Shown: piece after piece, positions 7,482 through 10,384 of the stretch | Position numbering within the stretch: position 1 is the stretch's first letter | Layout: each line of letters opens with the position of its first letter | NCBI GenBank assembly: GCA_017457305.1 | Contig: JAFTHP010000053.1 | Span: 1-63,007 of the forward strand | DNA: 63,007 bases | DNA from: Clostridia bacterium | Lineage (GTDB): Bacteria; Bacillota; Clostridia; Christensenellales; CAG-314 | Direction: 5' to 3' | The notes under the pieces: generated by a model | Told to the model about the DNA's origin: nothing | Databases searched by the model: none | The model's input: only the letters and a program-made list of their open reading frames with translations | Made by a program: the position numbers and the translations under genes

Positions 7482-8501
7482 ATGCTATCACTACTACTTG
7501 AAAGTGCTGCCGCTGTCGGCAACAGTTGGTCATTACCATTTGAAGATGCTTTCATCATTTGGCTACAGTCTCTTGGTGGAAAAGATTCCTTTATTTACCT
7601 AATAATGCAATTTATCACATTGTTTGGCGAGGAAGCATTGCTTGTTGGAACTATGGGACTTATCTACTGGGGATTTGACAAATCTCGCGGAGAAAGAGTT
7701 GGTTTTATGCTTATGGCAAACTGCTTGCTAAATCCAATGCTCAAAAACGTTGTTTGTCGCAGCAGACCACACATTTCCAATACAAACATCCATAACTTTA
7801 AAGACGTTGAGGGATACAGTTTCCCATCCGGTCACAGCAGTAGCGCTGCAGCAACATACGGTGGAGCAGCAGCCGTTTACAAAGACAAAAAGTTTAAGTG
7901 GCTGTGGGCGTTTGCCATTGTAATGCCAATTCTTGTTGCACTATCACGCAACTATCTAGGCGCACACTACATAACCGACGTTGTTTGCGGACTTGCGCTT
8001 GGTACGTGTGTTGTAATTCTATCGCAATATTTGTACAAAGTTGTTCCAAATAAGTATTGGATTTATATTGGCGCACTTGTGATTGGTATCCCAGGATTTT
8101 TCTACTGCACAACTAACGATTTCTTTACTGGGTACGGCATTTTGCTAGGTTTTGTTTGCGGTATATTCTTTGAAGAAAAAATAACAAAGTTCGAAAACAC
8201 CAAGATTTGGTGGAGAATTGCATTGCGTGTTGCTATCGGTGGCGGATTGTTCCTTGGTTTGAACGAACTGTTCAAAGCAACTGTTGGCCTAATCTACCCA
8301 ACATACAAAGAAAACGTTTGGTTTGAACATATTTTCCGTGTGCTAAGATACGGCTCAATTGTTTTCTTGATGATTGGCGTTTATCCAATGCTATTTAGAG
8401 TAGGCGACAAACTGTTTACCAAATGGGGCTGGATAAAGGACACCGAAACAACAACCACTACCCAAGAAACAATATCCATTGAAGACGTTGTTACTGAATA
8501 A
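7482..8501 (+). CDS. PAP2-family membrane phosphatase
   Basis: A 339-residue polytopic membrane protein with the three phosphatase signature blocks: K-N-V-V-C-R-S-R-P (KX6RP), FPSGHSSS (PSGH) and SRNYLGAHYITDV (SRX5HX3D), within residues about 90-170. Members of the PAP2 superfamily remove phosphate from lipid phosphates such as phosphatidate or undecaprenyl pyrophosphate; the substrate here is not known. At least seven further hydrophobic stretches follow, and the C-terminus is Thr/Glu-rich. AGGAGG precedes the ATG. The gene has its own promoter and terminator and sits between rpmB and the rpe-operon end, splitting an otherwise conserved gene order. Confidence 0.9.
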   Translation: MLSLLLESAAAVGNSWSLPFEDAFIIWLQSLGGKDSFIYLIMQFITLFGEEALLVGTMGLIYWGFDKSRGERVGFMLMANCLLNPMLKNVVCRSRPHISNTNIHNFKDVEGYSFPSGHSSSAAATYGGAAAVYKDKKFKWLWAFAIVMPILVALSRNYLGAHYITDVVCGLALGTCVVILSQYLYKVVPNKYWIYIGALVIGIPGFFYCTTNDFFTGYGILLGFVCGIFFEEKITKFENTKIWWRIALRVAIGGGLFLGLNELFKATVGLIYPTYKENVWFEHIFRVLRYGSIVFLMIGVYPMLFRVGDKLFTKWGWIKDTETTTTTQETISIEDVVTE

Positions 8502-8665: not shown

Positions 8666-8697
8666 AAAGTGTCGAACAAGTATTAGTTCAACACTTT
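8666..8697 (-). terminator. Terminator of the yicC-rpe operon
   Basis: On the minus strand, a 12-bp stem with one G-U pair (AAAGTGTTGAAC/GTTCGACACTTT, 8-base loop) followed by TTTTATTTTG. It begins 5 bases after the stop codon of the SpoVM-like gene. Confidence 0.8.
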
Positions 8698-8702
8698 GAT
8701 TG

Positions 8703-8789
8703 TTATTTTATGACAAATTTTGCTAGCAATACCTTTAAGATTCTGCCAACGAAGCTTGGCAATTTGTAACAAATAATTCTACTTTTCAT
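8703..8789 (-). CDS. spoVM: SpoVM-like sporulation microprotein
   Basis: A 28-codon ORF that starts with ATG at 8789 behind AAGGGGA (about 10 bases upstream) and ends just before the operon terminator. Residues 9-25 read KLPSFVGRILKVLLAKF. This aligns without gaps to residues 7-23 of Bacillus SpoVM (K-L-P-K-F-L-G-G-I-V-R, then L20 and F23), keeping the central proline, F, G, I, a basic residue and L/F of the amphipathic helix. SpoVM marks the positively curved forespore membrane and recruits SpoIVA for coat assembly. Position agrees: in Bacillus spoVM also lies between the rpe end of this operon and rpmB. Identity is inferred from a short motif plus synteny; a chance small ORF is possible but unlikely. 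Confidence 0.72.
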   Translation of the reverse strand: MKSRIICYKLPSFVGRILKVLLAKFVIK

Positions 8790-8850
8790 AACACAAAATC
8801 CCCTTTTTCTACATTATATGCAGTAATTTGGAAAATGTGCAAAAATTAAC

Positions 8851-9486
8851 TTATCTAAGGTTGGAAATAGCTTTTTCCCAGTTATCTGTATTGACAATGG
8901 CACTACCTGCAACTAAAACGTTTGCGCCCGCTTTCTTTACCAAAGGAGCAGTTTGAGTGTTAATTCCGCCATCCACTTGGATGAGAATATCGGGGTTTAG
9001 AGCGCGAATTTGAGCAATGCGTTCAACTGCACTAGGCATAAACTTTTGTCCGCCAAAACCTGGCTCAACGCTCATAACCAGCACCATATCTACAAGTGGC
9101 AAATATGGTTCGATTTCGGCTACTGGAGTTGCAGGCTTGATGGAAATGCCCACCTTGCAACTGCTCTTTTTGATTGCCTTTATGGTTGCAACAACGTCCT
9201 TTGCTGCTTCCATATGGAAGGTAATGATATCCGCACCAGCCTTGGCATAGTTATCTACTACGTTGATTGGATCAACCACCATCAAGTGAACGTCAAGTGG
9301 AATAGTTACCGCTTGTTTTACTTGGGAAACTAGTTGCCAATCAAAGGTGCTGTTGGGAACAAAAATGCCATCCATAACGTCCAAATGAATCCAATCGGCA
9401 CCATCACGTTGAAGCTTGGCGCATTGTGTTTGGATATTAGAAAAATCAAGTGTTAGTATTGAAGGGCTGATAAGAACTTTTTTCAT
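8851..9486 (-). CDS. rpe: Ribulose-phosphate 3-epimerase
   Basis: A 211-residue TIM-barrel enzyme that interconverts ribulose 5-phosphate and xylulose 5-phosphate in the pentose phosphate pathway. ISPSIL opens the barrel, HLDVMDG (34-40) carries the metal-binding His and Asp, DVHLMV holds the second His, and QVDGGIN the catalytic Asp; SVEPGFGGQKF is the phosphate-side loop. It follows rsgA by 25 bases with no strong ribosome site, so translation may depend on coupling or a weak site. It is followed by the SpoVM-like gene and the operon terminator. Confidence 0.95.
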   Translation of the reverse strand: MKKVLISPSILTLDFSNIQTQCAKLQRDGADWIHLDVMDGIFVPNSTFDWQLVSQVKQAVTIPLDVHLMVVDPINVVDNYAKAGADIITFHMEAAKDVVATIKAIKKSSCKVGISIKPATPVAEIEPYLPLVDMVLVMSVEPGFGGQKFMPSAVERIAQIRALNPDILIQVDGGINTQTAPLVKKAGANVLVAGSAIVNTDNWEKAISNLR

Positions 9487-9511: not shown

Positions 9512-10384
9512 TTAGTATTGATCTTTTTCTTTTTCCTTGAGTTCGTTGAATTCTTCAACATATCTGTCGTAGCGCTCTTTGTTTAGTCGACCTTCTGCCA
9601 CGGCTTGTCTTACACAACAATCTGGTTCAACGGTGTGGGTGCAAGACGTATATTTGCAACCGCCAATTTGAACAAAATCGTCTAAATACAAATGCAAATC
9701 TTCCGAACGGATATCATCTAAATCACACAAGGAGAAACCGCAAGTATCTACAACGTAACCATCAAATACCTTGTGAATACTGCTATGTCTTGTTGTATGT
9801 GTGCCACGGCCGGTTTTTTGTGACAATCCACCAACTTGACCGTTAAATGAAGGCAACAAAGCGTTCAAAATGGACGTTTTGCCAACGGCTGATTGACCTG
9901 CAAAACAGCACACTTTGCCGCTTATATAGTCTTTTAGCGCGTCCACGTTGCCCGATACTGCTGACATACTGACGATATCGGCAATACCGTTGTAATTTGA
10001 TTGTACTTGGTTTAGAGTGTCAACTGTAAGATCGGTTTTGTTTACCACAATTACTGGCTCAATGCCCTGCTTAAAGCAGTTGATTAGTACCTTATCTGCA
10101 AGATAAAAGTCTGGCTGAGGCTCACTTGCAAGCACTAAAAAGCAAAGGTCAACGTTGGCTATTTCTGGGCGGTAAAGTTTGTTTTTGCGTGGCAAAACTT
10201 CTACAATTACCCCTTTTCCCTTGCCCAAGTCTTCAAACTGAACGTTGTCTCCAACTAGAACGTCTAGTTGCTTGTAACGCAGTTTTTTAGGGGAAAAACA
10301 GGTATACTTGCGTTCTTCAGCTAGAACAGTAAAAACACCACCTACGCCCTTGACAATGCGACCACTAAGTAGTTTACTCTTCAT
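9512..10384 (-). CDS. rsgA: Small ribosomal subunit biogenesis GTPase RsgA
   Basis: A 290-residue circularly permuted GTPase that acts late in 30S maturation. An N-terminal OB-like domain precedes NKTD (G4), then GQSAVGKTS (G1) and DTCG (G3), the permuted order typical of RsgA/YjeQ. The C-terminus has a zinc-binding set of Cys/His (CKYTSCTH, then CC). Its start overlaps the last 11 bases of rlmN, and GGAGGG inside rlmN serves as ribosome site, suggesting coupled translation. In many Bacillota the PP2C phosphatase and Ser/Thr kinase genes (prpC, prkC) sit between rlmN and rsgA; here they are absent. Confidence 0.95.
   Translation of the reverse strand: MKSKLLSGRIVKGVGGVFTVLAEERKYTCFSPKKLRYKQLDVLVGDNVQFEDLGKGKGVIVEVLPRKNKLYRPEIANVDLCFLVLASEPQPDFYLADKVLINCFKQGIEPVIVVNKTDLTVDTLNQVQSNYNGIADIVSMSAVSGNVDALKDYISGKVCCFAGQSAVGKTSILNALLPSFNGQVGGLSQKTGRGTHTTRHSSIHKVFDGYVVDTCGFSLCDLDDIRSEDLHLYLDDFVQIGGCKYTSCTHTVEPDCCVRQAVAEGRLNKERYDRYVEEFNELKEKEKDQY

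Follow-up and report, generated by a model that had tools for sequence, protein, structure and literature searches.

A 28-codon frame on the minus strand of the window (the whole stretch of 63,007 nucleotides that was analysed) is, by profile homology, SpoVM by descent, in a diverged copy. Very probably it serves as the organism's spoVM, with a sigma-E-type promoter and a product that would act as a forespore-membrane helix, tethering the SpoIVA shell for the coat. The source bacterium is an uncultured organism with a small genome (1.51 Mb, 54 contigs, 93% complete) that retains the greater part of the known sporulation genes, and the gene, its homology, its position, its conservation, its partner genes, and the conservation of its promoter element were all demonstrated by the analysis.

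The frame (8703..8789, minus strand) runs from an ATG start to a TAA stop, begins 61 bases past the end of rpe, and encodes MKSRIICYKLPSFVGRILKVLLAKFVIK. A ribosome-binding site, AAGGGGA (8799..8805, minus strand), lies 9 bases 5' of the ATG, and nearly all relatives have a purine-rich GGAG or GGGG at the equivalent site. The upstream neighbour, in conserved synteny, is rpe (8851..9486, minus strand), which encodes ribulose-phosphate 3-epimerase (TIGR01163, above cut-off), and the frame is followed by an intrinsic terminator (8666..8697, minus strand) consisting of a 12-pair stem-loop and a T-run (-15.3 kcal/mol; fold z-score -5.5). The initial annotation had described a frame with an AAGGGGA site between rpe and the operon terminator, and the exact coordinates, the ribosome site, and the terminator were all recovered. 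Six-frame translation of the window yielded a single occurrence of a looser SpoVM-like core pattern, and 60 shuffled windows yielded none.

The peptide was detected (E<=1e-5) in 24 of the 25 genomes that make up the entire genus sample, source genome included; the sole genome without it is 79% complete and lies in 260 contigs. Translations from the genus follow MKxKI(F/Y)CFKLPxFLGxILRLxLGKxVxGKK, with Met1, Cys7, and Pro11 invariant across the 29 aligned SpoVM-type sequences. The rpe gene was directly upstream at 26 of 30 loci, and two of the other four are truncated by contig ends. Pooled over 27 spoVM loci (351 pairs), the coding frame gave pN 0.26 and pS 0.76, while in the shifted frames this contrast shrank or reversed (0.36/0.45 and 0.41/0.28). 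By these codon comparisons, spoVM is under purifying selection in the genus. The presence of the frame in 24 of 25 genomes and a synonymous bias confined to one frame mark it as a real gene rather than a product of chance.

The initial annotation had also held that this SpoVM homologue was missed by normal gene calling, and that claim applies in a stricter form, i.e., the source peptide matched neither the Pfam nor the NCBIfam SpoVM models. The curated cut-offs of these models (20.6 bits for PF08183 and 31 bits for NF033436) are annotation thresholds rather than biological features. With NF033436, congeners scored 17.6 to 30.7 bits and family members reached 25-31 bits; since the congeners fall below the 31-bit cut-off, a pipeline using it would not name them SpoVM. 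Searched alone against the PDB, the source peptide had a single match, SpoVM 2MVH, at E 0.94. Because it scores weakly by itself, its assignment to SpoVM rests on its relatives. A 29-member profile run against 177,635 PDB sequences retrieved two SpoVM entries, 2MVH (E 8.7e-7) and 2MVJ (E 5.9e-4), and no other molecule in the whole PDB up to E 10. A family-only profile of 27 peptides, from which two sequences lacking the 2-residue extension were left out, was compared with 13,003 frames from 80 rpe loci across bacteria. Its top ten loci all lay in Bacillota and encoded SpoVM-like peptides 3' of rpe; Bacillus-type SpoVM scored E 6e-6 to 2e-3, with that of Bacillus mediterraneensis, MKFYTIKLPKFLGGIVRAMLGALKKG, at E 6.1e-6, and rpe loci from non-Bacillota phyla gave chance-level matches only (E 0.5 or worse). 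The homology proposed at the outset was thus borne out, the profiles matching true Bacillus SpoVM and, within the PDB, SpoVM alone. Beyond the family, members of the order carry a shorter variant that is related, M(K/R)I(x)C(I/V/F)K(L/A/P)P; rpe precedes it in every case open to checking (G044, G054, and G047; also G025, inside the family).

Gene order points the same way. Bacillus, Neobacillus, Terribacillus, and Sporosarcina have rsgA-rpe-(gap)-spoVM-rpmB, with rpmB mostly on the opposite strand, and Pumilibacter intestinalis has rsgA-rpe-spoVM-rpmB, where a SpoVM of this type occupies the equivalent position. The source window and its relatives read rsgA-rpe-spoVM-PAP2-rpmB. Here rsgA (9512..10384, minus strand) precedes rpe as in Bacillus, rpmB (L28; 7059..7244, plus strand) forms the far flank of spoVM as it does in Bacillus, and a PAP2 phosphatase gene (7482..8501, plus strand) stands between spoVM and rpmB in the genus and one related genus. 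The ancestral spoVM position, from the end of rpe to rpmB, that had been claimed for the frame therefore matches the Bacillus order, with the PAP2 gene intervening. The PAP2 gene is convergent to spoVM in the genus and in the related genus (L187), and was not seen in the Bacillus or Pumilibacter loci. In one congener (G017; L024, L180), spoVM is of KAP type and no rpe was found beside it; the SpoIVA of that genome is strongly diverged (branch 2.65), so both partners have changed together.

Upstream of the ribosome site is a sigma-E-type -10 element, CATATAAT (CATAYAHT; 8813..8820, minus strand), that is conserved at orthologous sites. The -10 consensus of B. subtilis sigma-E is CATACAhT, which the conserved element matches. 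Within a 30-nt interval, CATA(C/T)A(A/C/T)T was found 28-38 bases before the spoVM start in 25 of 28 loci, and two further loci have it at 27 bases, one base outside the interval, for a total of 27/28, against 0.7% of background windows. Ahead of spoIVA, at a distance of 33-38 bases, 23 of 25 species carry this element too; the source genome's own spoIVA has no exact CATAYAHT -10. The candidate -35, GCACATT (8834..8840, minus strand), is separated from the -10 by a 13-base spacer; it is the weaker of the two, its position is inferred, and its counterpart in relatives, kmACnTT, is likewise less consensus-like than the -10. A whole-genome scan with the full -35/-10 pattern returned 4 matches and did not exceed its reversed control, so the pattern defines no regulon and the case is one of conservation at orthologous sites. 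A sigma-A reading of the same -10 (TGCACA-17-TATAAT) is disfavoured by the sequences of relatives. Since the CA before the -10 is kept in relatives that have the hexamer TACAAT or TATATT and lack a TTGACA box, the sigma-E type is favoured over sigma-A, and we infer that spoVM has its own promoter of this type.

By homology, the most likely role of the peptide is to anchor SpoIVA to the forespore. During sporulation, spoVM would be transcribed in the mother cell from a sigma-E-type promoter of its own, located immediately downstream of rpe. The product would form a short amphipathic helix with a kink at Pro11, shallowly inserted on the outer forespore membrane, whose N-terminal segment CYKLP (position 8 being Bacillus Ile6) would touch the SpoIVA C-terminus. 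This contact would tether the SpoIVA shell, the base on which the coat is built. Curvature binding, SpoIVA binding, and coat assembly are carried over here from work on Bacillus and C. difficile. The proline is invariant in all 29 aligned members, and Pro11 corresponds to Pro9 of Bacillus, the one residue conserved across all SpoVM and the source of a kink without which B. subtilis SpoVM cannot recognise positively curved membranes (PMC5607322). Among the residues needed in B. subtilis (Lys2, Ile6, and Ile15), Lys2 is kept, Ile15 is kept as Ile17, and the Ile6 position is Tyr8 in the source peptide and F/I/V/C in congeners. The hydrophobic moment of the source peptide, 0.49, equals that of Bacillus SpoVM, a value that 11% of shuffles reach.

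In B. subtilis, SpoVM Ile6 and SpoIVA Gly486 are genetically linked (PMC5607322), and the source SpoIVA C-terminus ends ..NENRGGLFCLIL. The equivalent of SpoVM position 6 is aromatic in 19 of 30 species, 16 of which have the SpoIVA tail GGLFC; in the 11 species with an aliphatic residue or Cys, the SpoIVA tail is without Phe and non-aromatic there in all 11. Three of the 30 species are mismatched. The association has a Fisher p of 7e-6, though it reflects just 3-4 changes on the tree and loses significance once relatedness is corrected for. The covariation between SpoVM and the SpoIVA tail is therefore a suggestive lead.

The peptide may conceivably be SpoVM by descent and yet largely dispensable, or modified in role (cortex, spore shape), with SpoIVA reaching the forespore otherwise. 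This reading, which overlaps with the favoured one on identity and differs on function, seems rather unlikely. In C. difficile spoVM mutants, SpoIVA still encases the forespore and functional spores form, SpoVM being largely dispensable there (PMC5607322). Five genomes of the family with SpoIVA (G026, G027, G031, G032, and G035) have no convincing spoVM at profile level, the gene having either diverged further or been lost. However, 24 of the 25 genus genomes keep the gene, and this genus-wide retention under purifying selection argues that spoVM matters in the genus.

The initial annotation had named a genome devoid of spoIVA and sporulation sigma factors, together with a peptide not conserved among close relatives, as the outcome that would tell against the SpoVM reading. 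On every count the opposite was found, with spoIVA, spoIIR, spo0A, sigE, and sigG all present. SpoIVA (486 aa) scored 581 bits with TIGR02836 (cut-off 460; 2e-174), SigE (PRK08301) and SigK (PRK05803) were above cut-off, with sigE behind SpoIIGA, and SigG, SpoIIR, Spo0A, and SpoVAC with SpoVAEB were also identified. The frames of SpoIVA, SigE, SigG, SigK, SpoIIR, Spo0A, and SpoVA are intact. The sigF gene (L153:45-767, G000:C44) is present too, but in the assembly it reads MISHEETMCLIE*AQNGSEKAF..., where a TAG interrupts the frame near codon 12. This genome uses TAG as a normal stop, which terminates 10 of 38 long ORFs of the window; the TAG in sigF, ~80 bases short of a contig end, could reflect either a genuine lesion or a misassembly. 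The sigF of relatives was not found at the guessed position, where gene order differs. In the 37 genomes of the family, neither alpha/beta SASP (PF00269) nor GPR (PF03418) gave a Pfam match, while Spo0A, SpoIIR, SpoIVA, and SpoVAC/SpoVAEB are kept in most of them, and GPR is kept in 18 of 24 genomes of the order's other families. The Pfam model may miss SASP, whereas GPR is less easily missed. These searches suggest that the family has an endospore programme without the SASP/GPR system. The sigF TAG and the family-wide failure to detect SASP and GPR leave the claim that the organism makes spores supported only in part. In one further genome of the set, G029 (92% complete; L187, G029:C25), spoVM lies beside rpe and SpoIIR is present, with no match for SpoIVA, Spo0A, or SpoVAC; sporulation loss under way and missing contigs are both possible.

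The sigF TAG and the lack of detectable SASP and GPR could also indicate that spoVM is a relic in a failing lineage, the species no longer completing sporulation. We consider this unlikely, since the TAG is near a contig end, where it may be an assembly error, and the other frames examined are intact. Moreover, SASP and GPR are undetected family-wide while spoVM is conserved, so that their absence is no mark of fresh decay.

Convergence on SpoVM by an unrelated small membrane peptide of amphipathic character (antimicrobial or resembling a type I toxin) is highly improbable. Short cationic amphipathic helices are easily confused and the single sequence scores weakly, but homology is statistically supported through both profiles, the synteny is common to Bacillus spoVM, and the sigma-E-type promoter element is common to spoIVA. 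A chance open frame in the rpe 3' region, of the kind that at 24-30 codons is frequent in the window, is refuted by conservation and synonymous bias, and also conflicts with the ribosome site and the absence of the motif from shuffles, which leaves it a negligible probability.

The novelty is a diverged member of the known SpoVM family in its expected place, and a family in which SASP and GPR go undetected while the rest of the tested programme is kept is more unusual than the SpoVM itself. More tentatively, and with considerable doubt, the order may carry a distinct SpoVM (marked by the core I-x-C-x-K-L/A/P-P, in which the Cys is invariant, and lengthened by two residues in the genus) that evolved in step with the C-terminus of SpoIVA, and the family's endospore programme may have lost SASP/GPR DNA protection and lead to non-classical spores. 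SpoVM is rarely annotated because of its extreme shortness, and whether distant clostridial versions exist where standard searches fail was left open by Galperin et al. 2012 (PMC3533761). The diverged SpoVM described here, which occurs across the genus and in several further families of the order, lies where expected and is accompanied by its partner SpoIVA; it answers that question for one order. The peptide set could serve to widen the SpoVM families, help predict which uncultured bacteria sporulate, and guide tests of which residues of SpoVM and SpoIVA are in contact.

Among known systems, B. subtilis SpoVM (26 aa; PF08183, NF011327, 2MVH) resembles the source peptide in gene place, length, Lys2, co-occurrence with SpoIVA, the K-L-P with its kink proline, and the F-x-G-x-I-x-K/R-x-x-L-x-x-F spacing. 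Unlike it, the source peptide is two residues longer between Lys2 and the Ile-x-Cys segment and has an invariant Cys7 (Thr5 in Bacillus) and Tyr8 (Ile6 in Bacillus); the cationic tail of congeners is longer, a PAP2 gene precedes rpmB, and scores fall below all curated cut-offs. The nearest annotation model is NF033436 (SpoVM_broad, NCBIfam), which leaves the source peptide unmatched and scores tested congeners at up to 30.7 bits. The SpoVM of Clostridioides difficile is likewise clostridial, near rpmB, and accompanied by SpoIVA (PMC5607322). In C. difficile, SpoVM Ile6 is kept and SpoIVA Gly486 is replaced by Asn, whereas here the SpoIVA GG is kept and position 6 is mostly aromatic.
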